Source: Microbacterium festucae
GTDB taxonomy: Bacteria > Actinomycetota > Actinomycetes > Actinomycetales > Microbacteriaceae
Assembly: GCF_025421715.1 (NCBI RefSeq)
Contig: NZ_JAOEFC010000002.1
Span: forward strand, 806,001-870,000
Reading direction: 5' to 3'
DNA: 64,000 nucleotides
The position numbers and the translations under genes were made by a program. Each line of letters opens with the position of its first letter. Positions within the stretch are counted from its first letter, which is position 1. Positions 1,158 to 64,000 of the stretch are shown one piece after another. A model generated the notes under the pieces. It was not told the DNA's origin. It saw only the letters and a program-made list of their open reading frames with translations, and did not search any database.

Positions 1158-2990
1158 TCAGGCTTCGAGCTGCTCGCCGAGTTCGAGCCAGCGCAGCTCG
1201 AGGGCGTCGCGCTCGGCCTCGAGCTCGCCGATCTCGCGCATGCGCTCGCCGAGGCCCTGGTAGTCGGCCTGGTCGTGGTCGGCCAGCGCCACCCGGTCGG
1301 CGTCGATGCGCCGGGTGAGCTTCTCCAGGCGCCGGTCCAGCGCGGTGAGCTCCTTCTCGGCGGCGCGGCGGTCGGCCCCCACCAGCGCGGGCGTCGCGGG
1401 CGCGGCGGCCGAGGCCGCGGCATCCGATGCCGGTGACGACGCGGCGCCGCGGGCGGCGGCATCCGCTCGCCCCACCCCGGCGGCGCGCAGCCGCAGGTAC
1501 TCGTCGATGCCGCCGGGCAGGTGCCGGAGGTGCCCGTCGAGCACGGCGTACTGGTTGTCGGTCACGCGCTCCATGAAGTAGCGGTCGTGGCTGACCACCA
1601 GCAGCGTGCCCGCCCACGCGTCGAGGAGATCCTCGATGGCGGCGAGCATGTCGGTGTCGAGGTCGTTGGTGGGCTCGTCGAGGATGAGCACGTTGGGCTG
1701 GTCGAGGAGGATCAGCAGGAGCTGCAGTCGGCGCTGCTGACCGCCGGAAAGGTCTTTCACGGGGGTCGACAGCTGCGCCGACGAGAAGCCCATGCGCTCC
1801 AGCAGCTGGCCGGGGGTGAGCTCGGTCGCCTTCGACCCGGTGCCGAACTCGTAGGTGGTGCGCAGGCGCCCGACGACCACCCGCACCGGCTCGTGGAGGT
1901 GCGGGTCGAGCTCGTCCATGCGCTGGGTGAGGGTCGCGACCTTCACCGTCTTGCCGCGCTTGACCCGGCCCGAGGTGGGGGTGACGGTGCCGGCGACCAG
2001 GCCCAGCAGGGTGGACTTGCCGGCGCCGTTGACGCCCAGGATGCCGGTGCGCTCCCCCGGCGCGATGCGCCACTCGACGCCCCGCAGCACCTGCTTGTCG
2101 TCGTAGGCGACGCCGGCGTCGAGCAGGTCGACGACGTCTTTGCCCAGGCGCGAGACGGCGAGCGACTGCAGCTGCACCTTGTCGCGGATCTCGGGCTCGT
2201 CGGCGATGAGCACATTGGCCGCGTCGATGCGGAACTTGGGCTTGGCCGTGCGCGCGGGCGCGCCGCGGCGCAGCCACGCGAGCTCTTTGCGGGCGAGGTT
2301 CTGACGTCGCTGCTCGATGACCGCCGCCTGCCGGTCGCGCTCGACGCGCTGCAGGATGTAGGCGGCGTATCCCCCCTCGAAGGGCTCGACGATGCGGTCG
2401 TGCACCTCCCACGTGGCGGTGCACACCTCGTCGAGGAACCAGCGGTCGTGGGTGACGACCAGCAGCGCCCCCGAGGAGGCCGCCCAGCGGCGCTTGAGGT
2501 GCGCGGCGAGCCACGCGATCGCCTCGACGTCGAGGTGGTTGGTCGGCTCGTCGAGGGCGAGCACATCCCAGTCGCCCACCAGCAGGCGCGCCAGGGCGAC
2601 GCGGCGGCGCTGACCTCCCGAGAGCGCCTCGAGCGCGCCGTGCCAGTCGAGGTCGCCGACCAGGCCCGCGATCACATCGCGCACCTGCGGGTCCCCGGCC
2701 CACTCGTGCTCGGGCCGGTCGCCCACCACCGCCTCGGCCACCGTGAGGTCGTCGGCGAGCACATCGGCCTGGTCGAGCATGCCGACCGTCACCCCGCCGC
2801 GGAACGTCACCCGCCCGGCATCCGGCTCGCGCCGCCCCGCGAGCATCGCGAGCAGGCTCGACTTGCCGTCGCCGTTGCGACCGACGATCCCGATGCGGTC
2901 GCCCTCGTCGACGCCGAGCGAGACGCGGTCGAAGACGACCTTGGTCGGGTATTCCAGGTGGAGCGCCTCGGCGCCGAGCAGATGAGCCAT
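1158..2990 (-). CDS. ABC-F family ATPase (Uup/EttA-like, ribosome-associated)
   Basis: A 610-residue protein with two ABC cassettes and no membrane segments. Cassette 1 has Walker A GRNGDGKSS (about 37-45), signature LSGGQ (123-127) and LALDEPTNHLD. Cassette 2 has GVNGAGKST (about 319) and LSGGQQRR (about 413). A charged coiled-coil tail rich in RR/EKEL/DRRLEKL (about 540-610) resembles the Uup C-terminal domain. ABC-F proteins act on the ribosome (translation rescue, assembly or antibiotic protection) rather than in transport. The start is the ATG 8 nt after a TAGCCT box. It is the last gene of the rsmA-ispE side cluster but is separated from it by the 1-kb repeat array. Whether it gives drug resistance cannot be told from sequence. 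Confidence 0.93.
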   Translation of the reverse strand: MAHLLGAEALHLEYPTKVVFDRVSLGVDEGDRIGIVGRNGDGKSSLLAMLAGRREPDAGRVTFRGGVTVGMLDQADVLADDLTVAEAVVGDRPEHEWAGDPQVRDVIAGLVGDLDWHGALEALSGGQRRRVALARLLVGDWDVLALDEPTNHLDVEAIAWLAAHLKRRWAASSGALLVVTHDRWFLDEVCTATWEVHDRIVEPFEGGYAAYILQRVERDRQAAVIEQRRQNLARKELAWLRRGAPARTAKPKFRIDAANVLIADEPEIRDKVQLQSLAVSRLGKDVVDLLDAGVAYDDKQVLRGVEWRIAPGERTGILGVNGAGKSTLLGLVAGTVTPTSGRVKRGKTVKVATLTQRMDELDPHLHEPVRVVVGRLRTTYEFGTGSKATELTPGQLLERMGFSSAQLSTPVKDLSGGQQRRLQLLLILLDQPNVLILDEPTNDLDTDMLAAIEDLLDAWAGTLLVVSHDRYFMERVTDNQYAVLDGHLRHLPGGIDEYLRLRAAGVGRADAAARGAASSPASDAAASAAAPATPALVGADRRAAEKELTALDRRLEKLTRRIDADRVALADHDQADYQGLGERMREIGELEAERDALELRWLELGEQLEA

Positions 2991-2998
2991 CGCCTTCC

Positions 2999-3004
2999 AG
3001 GCTA
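2999..3004 (-). promoter_or_regulatory. -10 box (TAGCCT) of the ABC-F gene
   Basis: On the minus strand TAGCCT lies 8 nt before the ATG at 2990, which suggests a leaderless or very short leader. The region where a -35 would fall is already G/C-rich repeat. Confidence 0.5.
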
Positions 3005-3038
3005 GGTGGTCGCGGCGGGGGGCGGGTGCCGGGGGGGT

Positions 3039-3074
3039 GGGTGGGGTGGGTGGGGTGGGTGGGGTGGGTGGGGT
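3039..3074. repeat. G-rich 9-bp tandem repeat
   Basis: The 9-bp unit GGGTGGGGT is repeated four times, followed by a degenerate tail to about 3085. Runs of three and four G alternate with single T, a strong G-quadruplex pattern on the plus strand. It sits about 50 bp upstream of the ABC-F start and at the left edge of the hairpin array. Confidence 0.85.
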
Positions 3075-3121
3075 GTGTGGGGGGTCTGGTGCGCGGAGTG
3101 CGGGACTTGGTGCGTGAGCGG

Positions 3122-3952
3122 GTCCCGCAAACGGTGGGTGTTGGCGCGGGCACCCGCAGGATGCGGGACATGGCGTTGACCGGGGTCCCGGAAACCGCGA
3201 GTTGCGGCGGCTGCACCCGCAGGATGCAGGACCTGGTGTGGGCGCGAGTCCCGGAAACCGTGGGTTGCGGCGGCTGCACCCGCAGGATGCGGGACCTGGA
3301 TGCGAAGGAGGTCCCGCGGACGGTGGCTTGCGGGGGCTGCACCCGCAGGATGCGGGACCTGGTGTGGGCGCGAGTCCCGGAAACCGTGGGTTGCGGCGGC
3401 TGCACCCGCAGGATGCGGGACCTGGATGCTAAGGAGCTCCCGCGGACGGTGGCTTGCGGGGGCTGCACCCGCAGGATGCAGGACGCCGTCGCCGAGGAGG
3501 TCACGCATACGGCGGCTCGCCGGTCGGCATCCGCAGATCACGGAACGGCGCGGAGTGCGTCCCGCAGATGGCGGGTCGCCAGGAGCCGCACCTGCCGATT
3601 GTGGGACATGGTTGCCAGTGAGGTCACACGAACGGCGGGCTCTGGCGCTCACACCCGCCGATTGTGGGACATGGATGCCAGTGAGGCCACACGAAGGGCG
3701 GGCTCTGGCGCTCACACCCGCCGGTTGCGGGACAGGGATCGAGAGCGGGTCCCGCAACCGGTGGGTTGCGGGCGGCATCCGCTGAATGCGTGACCCGGAT
3801 GCCGTGACATCCCGCAAACGGGGCGTCGCGGCGCGCACACCCCACCGATCGCGGGACGCGGGCTCGGGATGGGTCTCCCAATCCGCGAGCTGCCGAACCC
3901 ACACCCGCACACAACGGGACACGGGTGCCGGCGCGGTCACACATTCGGCGGG
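3122..3952. repeat. Tandem array of about 14 hairpin units, 63-bp period
   Basis: Each unit is about 48 bp that opens with GTCCCGCA (or a variant) and closes with TGCGGGAC, so each can fold into a stem with inner GGGT/ACCC pairing. Units are joined by 15-bp spacers. Unit starts are 3122, 3185, 3248, 3311, 3374, 3437, 3500, 3559, 3623, 3686, 3749, 3809, 3873 and 3936. The first seven are exactly 63 bp apart. 3248-3373 and 3374-3499 form a nearly identical 126-bp dimer for most of their length, which shows recent duplication; units to the right are more diverged. Compensated changes occur (GTCACAC arms, GTGGGAC arms). Open frames run through on both strands because 63 is a multiple of three. 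I regard them as non-coding. No transposase or cas gene is nearby. Confidence 0.88.
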
Positions 3953-3954
3953 TC

Positions 3955-4012
3955 ACCCCACCCGCCCCGCCGCACCCCGCCCCGCCGCACCCCGCCCGAC
4001 CCCGCCGCACCG
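3955..4012. repeat. C-rich tandem repeat closing the array
   Basis: About four imperfect copies of a 15-bp CCGCCCCGCCGCACC-type unit lie between the hairpin array and the end of the acetyltransferase gene. Together with the G-rich block at 3039-3074 it means the array is bounded by purine-rich and pyrimidine-rich simple repeats of opposite strand. Confidence 0.7.
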
Positions 4013-4023
4013 CGGCCCGGGGC

Positions 4024-5352
4024 TCAGTACCAGAAGCTCAGGCGCGGGGCGGCGGGGGCGGCGAACAGGCGCGCGAGGCGCTCGGGGTCGTCGGCCTGCA
4101 GCCGGCCGGCGCGGGCCAGCGTCACCGGCGAGACGCCGCCGAGCAGGAGCGCCGACAGCTCCGCGACGCCGAGACGCACCGACGGGATGCCGGGCGGCGG
4201 GGCGTCGACGGCGTCGACCTCGGCGCGGCCGTCGTCGTCGACGGTGAGCACGAACGCGCCGCCGGCGATGTCGAGCGGGTCGTCGACCTCGAGGGCGACG
4301 GCGTCGGCGACGTCGTAGCGGCGGGCGGCGAGGGCGGCGGGAACATCCAGCACCCGCAGGTACTGGTGGTCGCGCACGGTGATCTTCGCGGCGCGCTGGT
4401 CGGAGATCATCCACCACAGCGGCTCGTCGACCGCCAGCTCGCCGGCGCGGATCGTGCCGATGAGGTCCATCGAGAGGAAGAAGCGCCACAGCGCCGCGTA
4501 GGCGTCGTCGGTCGCGGCGAGCAGCATCGAGATGTCGACCGTGGATGCCGCGTAGTCGTCGTGGTTCTCAGAGACGCTGTAGACGGCGAGGCCGTCGATG
4601 TCGTCGCCCTCGGCCGACCGGTACTGCACGACGCGCAGCCGCTCGGGCTTGTCGGCGTCGGGGCGGGTGCCGAAGGCGCGGTCCCAATGGCCGCCGGGCA
4701 TGTCGATCTCGCCGGGCGAGGCCAGACGGGTGCGCTCGTGCAGGCCGGGGGCCAGGGCGCGGCCGGTCTCGCGGGAGACGAAGTCGATGCGCCCCGCGGG
4801 GGTGGGGCCGATCCACCGGGCGCGGCGCACCGCGATCTCCCAGTGGGCGGCGGCGGCCGCCGGCGCGAAGCCGAACCGGCCGTAGATGCCCGACTCGCTG
4901 ACGGTGAGGGCGGCCAGCGGGAAGCCCTGACTGACGGCGGTGCGCAGCTCCCCCGCCATGACCGCGCTCAGCAGCCCGCGGCGGCGATGGGTGGGGGCGA
5001 CGGTGACCGAACTGATCGCGCACGCGGGCACGGTGCCGCCGGGCACGGTGAGCTGCGACTCCCACGAGGCGAAGGTCGCCACCGGGAGCGCGGGCTCGGC
5101 GCCGGCGGCGTCGTACACGCCGATCTTGCGGCGGTAGGCGGTGCGGTCGAAGAAGGCCTCGCGCTGCGTGTCGTTGCGCTCGCTGTCGAGGAACCCGCGA
5201 CCGACGGCATCCAGCCACGGGTCGGTCTCGGCGCGCACGGCGTCGTCGACGCGGCGCACCTCGAGGCCCTGCCCGGTGATCGCGGCGGTGAGCTGCTCGT
5301 CGAGCGGCGCGCTGTGGAAGCCGGCGATGCCGGCGTTCTCGCTCTGGGACAC
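4024..5352 (-). CDS. Eis-like GNAT N-acetyltransferase
   Basis: About 442 residues. The N-terminal GNAT domain carries the acetyl-CoA binding segment SSVTVAPTHRRRGLLSAVM and the TVSESGIYGRFGFAPAA block typical of the Eis (enhanced intracellular survival) family. It is followed by a second degenerate GNAT domain and a sterol-carrier-like C-terminal domain. The chain ends in LSFWY, an aromatic C-terminus; in Eis the free C-terminal carboxylate takes part in catalysis. Eis enzymes acetylate aminoglycosides or lysines, and the substrate here is unknown. A TTG lies at 5364, but GTG at 5352 sits 5 nt after a GGAGG site, so I chose GTG. It follows ispE by 42 nt in the same direction. Confidence 0.85.
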   Translation of the reverse strand: MSQSENAGIAGFHSAPLDEQLTAAITGQGLEVRRVDDAVRAETDPWLDAVGRGFLDSERNDTQREAFFDRTAYRRKIGVYDAAGAEPALPVATFASWESQLTVPGGTVPACAISSVTVAPTHRRRGLLSAVMAGELRTAVSQGFPLAALTVSESGIYGRFGFAPAAAAAHWEIAVRRARWIGPTPAGRIDFVSRETGRALAPGLHERTRLASPGEIDMPGGHWDRAFGTRPDADKPERLRVVQYRSAEGDDIDGLAVYSVSENHDDYAASTVDISMLLAATDDAYAALWRFFLSMDLIGTIRAGELAVDEPLWWMISDQRAAKITVRDHQYLRVLDVPAALAARRYDVADAVALEVDDPLDIAGGAFVLTVDDDGRAEVDAVDAPPPGIPSVRLGVAELSALLLGGVSPVTLARAGRLQADDPERLARLFAAPAAPRLSFWY

Positions 5353-5394
5353 GGTGTCCTCCAAGGGTGAGGGGTGGAACGGGGAGGGAAGAGG

Positions 5395-51010: not shown

Positions 51011-51744
51011 GCACACCCGACGACACCGGCGAGACCACGGGCGACACCACCGACGAGACCACCGACGAGACGGTCGTCGTGCGGCGCGGACCGGAGCCCG
51101 ACGACGCCACCGTTCTCGCCCGGCGACGGCCGCAGCCCGCACCGGAGCCCGTGCCCGACGACGCCACCGTTCTCGCCCGGCGCCGGCCGGAGCCCGCATC
51201 CGCGCCGGAGCCCGAGCCCGCACCCGAGCCCGAGCCCGACGACGCCACCGTTCTCGCCCGGCGGCGGCCGGAGCCCGCGCCGGCGGCAGAGCCCGCACCC
51301 GACGACGCGACCGTCGTGGTGCGGCGCGCCCCCGAGGATGCCACCGTCGTCGCGCCCCGACGCGGGGCCCCCGCCGCCGACCCGGCGCCCGCGGTCGAGC
51401 ACGCCCCCGCGCCGCGCACCGACCCGCCGCCCACCCAGCCGCTGCAGGTCGTCGCCGCCCGGCCGCCCCTGCCGGGCGCCGCGACCGATCCGCCCACCCG
51501 CGGCGACGAGGTGCGCCGCGCCTACCGGCCCGGTGCCGACGGCATCGACCAGCGCGCCTACGGGGTGCGCAGCACCGCCGCGCCCCCGCCCGCGGCGGTG
51601 CACCGGCCCGCGCCGCAGACCTCCGCGCCGGCACCGGCGCCCGCCCCGCGACGCCGACGGCGCGGGCCCGTGACCGCGATCGCCGCGACAGCGCTGGTGC
51701 TGGTGGCCGCCGGCATCCTGCTGGTCGCGCTCGTGACAGGATGA
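51007..51744 (+). CDS. Repetitive tail-anchored protein with D-D-A-T-V repeats
   Basis: 245 residues, not a known family. An acidic Thr-rich start (TGETTGDTTDETTDETVVVRR) is followed by repeats PDDATVLARRRPEPA: three near-identical copies at 51097, 51154 and 51235 plus degenerate PDDATVVVRRAPEDATVVAPRR. A Pro/Ala region, RRRRR, and one C-terminal membrane helix (222-245) complete it. It has no catalytic domain. The repeated Thr, set after acidic residues and before V/L, looks like a phospho-acceptor, so this may be a multivalent phosphorylated docking protein for the FHA proteins (inference). Confidence 0.8.
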   Translation: MSTPDDTGETTGDTTDETTDETVVVRRGPEPDDATVLARRRPQPAPEPVPDDATVLARRRPEPASAPEPEPAPEPEPDDATVLARRRPEPAPAAEPAPDDATVVVRRAPEDATVVAPRRGAPAADPAPAVEHAPAPRTDPPPTQPLQVVAARPPLPGAATDPPTRGDEVRRAYRPGADGIDQRAYGVRSTAAPPPAAVHRPAPQTSAPAPAPAPRRRRRGPVTAIAATALVLVAAGILLVALVTG

Positions 51745-63639: not shown

Positions 63640-64000
63640 ATGGACGACCTGTCGCGGCATCTGCCGCTGTCGCAGCGCTCCGGCGTCGACGAGTCGGGCG
63701 CCACCGCCGACCGCCGTGCCGACATCGCCCGGGTGCGCGAGCGCCACGCCGAGCTGGTCGCCGGAGCGCAGCCGGAGCGCTCGGTGGAGTCGGAGCGGGC
63801 GGTGCAGGAGTCGGCGCGCGCGGCGCAGCCGGAGCGGGCGGCGCAGCCGGAGCGGGCGGTGCAGGCGGAGCGGGCGGCGCAGCTGCGGGCCGAAGCCGAC
63901 GGCATCCGCCGGGGACCGCGCCGCCCGATGCGCGATCTGGTGGCCGCGGTGCGCGAGCTCGCCGCCGACGCCGGCGACGCGCCGCTCGGGCTGCCCGCGC
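63640..64000 (+). CDS. Unrecognised protein, N-terminal part, with Glu/Arg/Ala/Gln repeats
   Basis: The gene is cut by the right edge after about 120 residues. It starts MDDLSRHLPLSQRSGVDESGATADRRADIARVRERH, followed by a low-complexity helical stretch built on (Q/x)PERA(A/V)Q units, about five copies between 63766 and 63885, then GIRRGPRRPMRDLVAAVRELAADAG. I do not recognise a family. The start is supported by the TAGGAT box and the high-GC third-position pattern. It is divergent from the LacI/araD locus, with two palindromes in between. Confidence 0.6.
   Translation, partial: MDDLSRHLPLSQRSGVDESGATADRRADIARVRERHAELVAGAQPERSVESERAVQESARAAQPERAAQPERAVQAERAAQLRAEADGIRRGPRRPMRDLVAAVRELAADAGDAPLGLPA

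Follow-up and report, generated by a model that had tools for sequence, protein, structure and literature searches.

A repeat that returns every 63 bp lies between two genes of Microbacterium festucae, within the 64,000-nucleotide stretch of DNA analysed here (the window), which spans 806001-870000 of contig NZ_JAOEFC010000002.1. What is being kept by this repetition: a fold, a mobile element, or a sequence that is read as double-stranded DNA? A first-pass annotation had described tandem hairpin units, suggested that the fold and not just the sequence was retained, and proposed a nucleoid-protein element, a phase-variable promoter spacer or a replicating non-autonomous repeat.

The 63-bp array and its flanks

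The array lies at about 3089-3957 and occupies most of the gap between the stop (4024) of an upstream GNAT-type, Eis-like acetyltransferase gene (4024..5364, minus strand, 3' end facing the array) and the start (2990) of a downstream gene for an ABC-F type ATPase (1158..2990, minus strand, 5' end facing the array); both are ORFs named from their sequence. We detected 25 sites of 21 bp each, alternating in orientation with a period of 63 bp. In the site model their A/T positions run from 3105 to 3937 in the order +-+-; where the array is regular the steps are 18 and 45, and weak or irregular units lie near 3501-3606 and 3669-3919. Tandem Repeats Finder reports periods of 63 and 126 bp at 3099-3484 and of 63 bp at 3589-3739; these periods and the half-site counts given below confirm that the 63-bp tandem array is real.

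The first site, 3088..3109 on the plus strand (core TGCGGGACTTG, A at 3105), is a degenerate left end. An example of the diverging-pair module, the counterpart of the 50/51-bp module of relatives, is found at 3121..3170, with GTCCCGCA ... TGCGGGAC as its arms (T at 3123, A at 3168, a distance of 45); a 15-bp spacer between converging sites then occupies 3170..3184 (A at 3168 to T at 3186, a distance of 18). These arms and this spacer are as the first-pass annotation described them, and the 126-bp duplication that it saw on the left is also recovered by Tandem Repeats Finder: two near-identical 126-bp double units at 3222..3473 mark a recent local duplication, and the 126-bp period runs to 3.1 copies. 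A second local expansion, at 3589..3739, comprises 2.4 copies at 92% and carries the GTCACAC / GTGGGAC variant, a single variant that was duplicated.

The simple repeats noted on either side are likewise present according to Tandem Repeats Finder. On the left, the G-rich strand of (GGGGTGGGT)n at 3031..3085 is the plus strand and runs into the array; on the right, a C-rich repeat at 3956..4019 is G-rich on the minus strand, again running into the array. In the M. festucae genome arrays usually have a G-rich left and a C-rich right flank, irrespective of gene direction (p=3e-8), with G4 motifs on the inward strand only (12/54 vs 0/54). As these patterns are absent in relatives, they are a species feature, and we rejected the idea that the flanks belong to the core element. 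The window contains two more tandem repeats, at 51091-51295 (57/81-bp periods) and at 63768-63883 (18/57-bp periods).

A period of 63 bp had been taken to leave all frames open, but there are 1-5 stops per frame in all six frames across the window array, one of 10 arrays among the 27 in this genome with stops in all six. When all arrays are counted, the frame is lost at 18% of steps of the 45 type and at 7% of those of the 18 type. No gene was found inside any of the 27 arrays with a home-made codon-based gene caller. We rejected a coding repeat because of the frame-breaking steps and because no single frame stays open through the arrays.

A 21-bp site with fixed geometry

With the window array as query, BLASTN returned 107 matches in the M. 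festucae genome, and the half-site pattern matched 87+94 times, as opposed to 3+4 for its reversed control, so the array stands far above chance. A census based on BLAST, pattern matches and 27 stretches of the genome, which may have overlooked short arrays, gives 27 intergenic arrays with 572 copies of one 21-bp site in 3.33 Mb. The repeat unit proper is this asymmetric site, ACCCRCnnnTTGYGGGACnYG. Its weight matrix was refined on the 27 stretches (about 0.5 Mb), where it finds 572 sites inside arrays and 30 outside.

Neighbouring sites alternate in orientation almost without exception, at a distance of 45 bp in diverging pairs and 18 bp in converging ones. Converging neighbours are at exactly 18 bp in 232/250 cases and within 1 bp of it in 98.8%; diverging neighbours, counted without short hits that overlap and without the few long gaps, are at exactly 45 bp in 185/229 cases and within 1 bp in 96.5%. 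The two distances add up to 63 bp, or six helical turns of 10.5 bp. The most conserved bases of the unit (C33, C35 and G43-C47) form two clusters about 11 bp apart, a pattern that would fit a protein reading two successive major grooves.

A looser search for the core and a scan of GTDB with the direct repeat of 21 bp uncovered the form that this site takes in the genus. The core module TGTCCCAC-N34/35-GTGGGACA is present in 101 of 367 Microbacterium genomes in up to 42 copies, with many relatives holding one or a few, and its reversed-pattern control gave 0 everywhere. Of 56 diverging neighbours of the genus form (CRTGTCCCAC...GTGGGACAYG) at the loci read, 54 keep a distance of 45 or 46 bp. 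Direct repeats mostly follow one another at 21 bp, and the distance between converging sites is free to vary. The outer half of the site (GYGGGACnYG) is constant across the genus; the inner half varies by species at a fixed length, the blocks being CGACAGAAA in G569, CTGCgGcAA in G595 and TGTGCaGAAA in G585. The inverted pair of the M. festucae type is absent from 399 other genomes of the family and at background level in 197 other genomes of the genus, except for a weak excess in one (G584). Its 63-bp array pattern had no match in GTDB or viral contigs, collections that may omit the M. festucae genome itself. Literature searches brought up nothing relevant, either for Microbacterium repeats or for the sequence of the site.

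The gap between the ABC-F and GNAT genes measures 205, 152 and 39 bp in three relatives. In one close relative, G407, it contains a different inverted pair, GGAGGAGATCYGCG, at an offset of exactly 51 bp; this pair occurs at five loci of that genome, the ABC-F/GNAT gap included (C1:51017, 1294730, 1830366, 2488330 and 2863038). At the other array loci checked in G407 and in a second relative, G411, there is no array. Given that the orthologous gaps of close relatives may be short and lack the module, function at any single locus is dispensable.

All arrays of M. festucae are intergenic: 15 lie between convergent, 9 between tandem and 3 between divergent genes, as called with the codon-based gene caller. 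The baseline in this genome is 50 convergent, 221 tandem and 57 divergent gaps, so that convergent gaps are strongly favoured (15/27 vs 50/328, p=6e-6). The 43 loci examined in relatives (18 convergent, 24 tandem, 1 divergent) show the same preference (18/43 vs 62/336, p=0.001) and a deficit of divergent gaps (1/43 vs 64/336, p=0.004). Where the flanking genes are in tandem, the array is closer to the 3' end of the upstream gene in 24 of 33 pairs from M. festucae and relatives together (p=0.014, counted by hand). Twenty flanking proteins belong to ordinary metabolism and housekeeping and share no common theme, and the arrays are unevenly spread along the contigs. One array adjoins a gene whose 413-aa product has two DNA-binding domains of the TetR type (L069:8689-9930).

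Other gaps of the M. festucae genome, free of arrays, hold more inverted-pair families with a fixed span and a variable loop, mostly at convergent gene ends: CGAGTGTCCAAGACACGCGG always has an offset of 39, CGCATAACTCAGGCAGA of 58/59 and CGAAACTCCTCCATTCC of 60. The array family may thus be one of several such site systems. In a second inverted-pair family, GAGTGTCCAAGACACG, the offset is exactly 39 in every complete pair, the loops differ, and most copies lie between convergent genes (L065:4707; L066:9667; L067:11138 and 11334; L068:14658, 15176 and 15348; L084:6042 and 6217; L087:17404); a pair in another species (L110:3526) has an offset of 40. The CGCATAACTCAGGCAGA family, a third, has a span of 73/74 and occupies two gaps, all copies convergent (L069:13853 and 14015; L078:661 and 835). 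Repeats with a 21-bp period and a similar CRTGTCCCAC or GTGGGACAC core occur in other actinobacterial families, in Sinomonas (L120, L173, L185), Actinophytocola (L121, L123), Actinoplanes (L132) and Amycolatopsis (L141), and a Thermoanaerobaculia MAG from an unrelated phylum (L188, L131, L183) carries long 21/22-bp tandem arrays of GTGGGACACG units.

Folding, growth and mobility of the arrays

If a hairpin were selected, the arms of one unit should pair better with each other than with the arms of different units. Among 184 distinct units of M. festucae, the outer arms pair at 0.886, compared with 0.890 when shuffled globally and 0.883 when shuffled within arrays; the inner arms pair at 0.756 vs 0.793, below every shuffle. 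For 70 modules from 27 relatives the values are 0.625 vs 0.632 (inner arms) and 0.852 vs 0.864 (outer arms), and a second set of 73 modules from 15 genomes, overlapping the first in some genomes, gives 0.630 vs 0.631 (p=0.83). With arm covariation absent from all three data sets, the fold is not what is kept. The arm changes previously read as compensatory are one variant duplicated inside the window array, and a mini-hairpin within the half-site was rejected because it showed no covariation.

Other observations bear on folding as well. Units of the window array can fold in alternative ways, at z-scores between -2.7 and 0.4; no stem-loop with a T-run terminator was found at 2900-4100 of the window; and Rfam matched only tRNAs in 103 kb containing arrays and gave only sub-threshold chance matches on the window array. 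The loop is constant in length although its sequence varies. Relatives use the same site as direct 21-bp repeats, which are incapable of forming a hairpin with one another. Some of their modules are near-perfect palindromes (G508). The first-pass interpretation holds in part. Of the outcomes that it had named as refuting, half were observed: covariation is absent, but many other copies of the unit exist and relatives keep the geometry of the module.

The sequences of the arrays also record how they grew. Between arrays, several columns of the site reach or exceed 0.95 identity, as against 0.39 for loops and 0.36 for spacers, where 0.30 is expected from base composition; within arrays loops and spacers are at about 0.60. 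The 572 sites comprise 521 distinct 21-mers, only 9 of which occur in more than one array. As the sites, but not the near-chance loops and spacers, are conserved from one array to another, the arrays expanded through local duplication rather than by copying from locus to locus.

Searches for a mobilising enzyme were negative. Y1_Tnp (RAYT, PF01797) gave 0 matches in the M. festucae genome and 0 in seven relatives, with positive controls, and no rve transposase was found in M. festucae. The rve loci that we read in five relatives have the module at the element ends in no case, and we rejected transposon ends on this basis. A locus in G569 (L258:1221-2543), considered as a transposon bearing module ends, was also rejected: it is an IS3-type element, with a 3-bp duplication (TCC), that has landed within one of a module's sites, so these may serve as targets for insertion sequences. 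The module does end in TG...CA, resembling some DDE transposon ends, and its CR..YG flanks extend the inverted repeat; they are inverted, not direct, unlike a target duplication. The exact module had no match in viral contigs, where five 21-bp matches appear unrelated; BLAST against phages and plasmids gave only chance matches, and a query with a 41-bp consensus turned up no such array among 72,556 plasmid records. A phage or plasmid origin was rejected on these searches.

Candidate roles for the arrays

Of the three earlier proposals, the nucleoid-protein element comes closest; what the data support best is a set of sites for a DNA-binding protein with sequence specificity. We think it probable, from the conservation and spacing of the site, that the arrays are bound by a putative protein of this kind that recognises double-stranded DNA and is conserved in Microbacterium. 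It would read a bipartite, asymmetric 21-bp site, with the outer block GYGGGACnYG and a species-specific inner block one helical turn inward. The basic module is a diverging pair of sites with 45/46 bp between equivalent bases, to which some species have added direct 21-bp repeats on the outside and which M. festucae has multiplied in tandem at exactly 63 bp. Because 63 bp is six helical turns, this puts all sites on the same side of the helix, and the bound protein, which may bind cooperatively, could form a continuous one-sided filament.

What such a protein might do is suggested by where its sites lie. Because diverging pairs are symmetric, a polymerase arriving from either side would meet the same site orientation; this, together with the position at gene 3' ends, makes a bidirectional roadblock or insulator the most likely role, one that would stop read-through between neighbouring, mostly convergent genes. 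Taken with the protein step on which it depends, this role is a plausible but tentative reading. About half of the sites have tandem flanking genes, which counts against it, as does the finding that the extra direct repeats in relatives have no clear bias to the side of incoming transcription; avoidance of promoters, too, would be equally expected of any tolerated insertion. More speculative still is the full scheme, in which Microbacterium would have a putative new, dedicated protein that acts as a bidirectional roadblock on gene 3' ends, its inner recognition would drift between species, and its sites in M. festucae would have been expanded into 27 one-face filaments of ~20 sites each.

The main rival is an array that organises the chromosome, in which a protein of the nucleoid-associated, occlusion or partition type binds these sites and thereby marks or bridges some 27 chromosomal places, and the position at gene ends reflects tolerance alone. 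It is favoured by the presence of hundreds of sites, by their helical phasing (63 and 21 bp), by arrays that are naturally operator-like and by flanking genes of ordinary metabolism with no common theme. It leaves the preference for convergent gaps unexplained, however, and the uneven placement along contigs and the one or few modules in many relatives, insufficient for a global organiser, make it a somewhat unlikely account. A neutral expansion of functionless tandem repeats would suit the near relatives whose orthologous gaps lack arrays, as well as growth by local duplication; we consider it very improbable, as it is contradicted by a site and a 45-bp distance that are kept across arrays and species while the neighbouring bases drift to near chance.

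The two remaining alternatives make the inverted pair itself the functional unit. A selfish element like a REPIN/BIME or MITE, a short inverted pair spread by a transposase in trans, would explain intergenic pairs with constant spacing and the TG...CA ends; it is improbable given that neither RAYT nor rve was found in M. festucae, that the rve loci of relatives lack module ends and an IS3-type element sits inside a site, that only 9 of 521 distinct 21-mers are common to several arrays with between-array spacers near chance, and that the CR..YG flanks extend the inverted repeat. The replicating non-autonomous repeat of the first-pass annotation is disfavoured on the same transposase and 21-mer results, and its phase-variable promoter spacer by the preference for convergent gene ends and the rarity of arrays in divergent promoter regions. 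Hairpins repeated in tandem in 3' UTRs, acting through their fold to terminate or stabilise transcripts, would account for a foldable pair, the near-palindromic modules of G508 and the location at gene 3' ends, but three tests without covariation, the missing T-run terminator in the window region and Rfam match, the alternative folds and a loop of fixed length despite its variable sequence render them decidedly unlikely.

Like the REPINs and BIMEs of Pseudomonas fluorescens and E. coli, the Microbacterium sites are short intergenic inverted pairs with constant spacing and variable loops, clustered in alternating orientation; REPIN spacings are 71 or 110 bp (PMC3116915), and the tag at the end of a REP palindrome is, according to one published account, a GTAG or CGTC tetranucleotide (PMC3733652). 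The shared inverted-pair anatomy comes without four defining features of that class: there is no RAYT transposase, copies at different loci are not near-identical, the arms do not behave as a selected stem, and the consensus has neither GTAG nor CGTC at its ends. Direct 21-bp repeats and exact 63-bp phasing also set the Microbacterium site apart from REPINs and BIMEs. As for MITEs, the rve search found no autonomous element with the same ends.

The closest mechanistic analogy that we can offer is the stoperators of cluster A mycobacteriophages, also asymmetric intergenic sites, at which a repressor touches two successive major grooves on the same DNA face and brings transcription elongation to a halt (PMC9283540). 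Stoperators measure 13 bp, are dispersed over the genome of a phage and serve as targets of a phage repressor, whereas the sites described here are chromosomal, 21 bp long and paired or arrayed, with a protein that is putative. The Sal-box terminators of mouse rDNA, 18-bp sites bound by TTF-I that stop polymerase and replication forks, are likewise repeated downstream of genes; they are eukaryotic, confined to a single locus and unrelated in sequence. Plasmid iteron and centromere arrays have direct repeats, about 21 bp in length and aligned on a single helical face, together with inverted pairs, as seen here, but the Microbacterium sites occupy 27 chromosomal loci.

A site of exact geometry found genus-wide, with hundreds of copies in one genome and an inner half that varies by species, implies a putative DNA-binding protein of chromosome-scale reach. 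The arrays are natural operator arrays that could serve for fluorescent locus tagging and for the study of cooperative one-face binding, and the drift of the inner block offers a natural series for the co-evolution of protein and site. High-GC actinobacteria often lack classical T-run terminators; if the protein stops polymerase at gene ends, it would explain how some of them separate convergent genes, and such a roadblock, if true, would be a chromosomal, host-encoded counterpart of phage stoperators.
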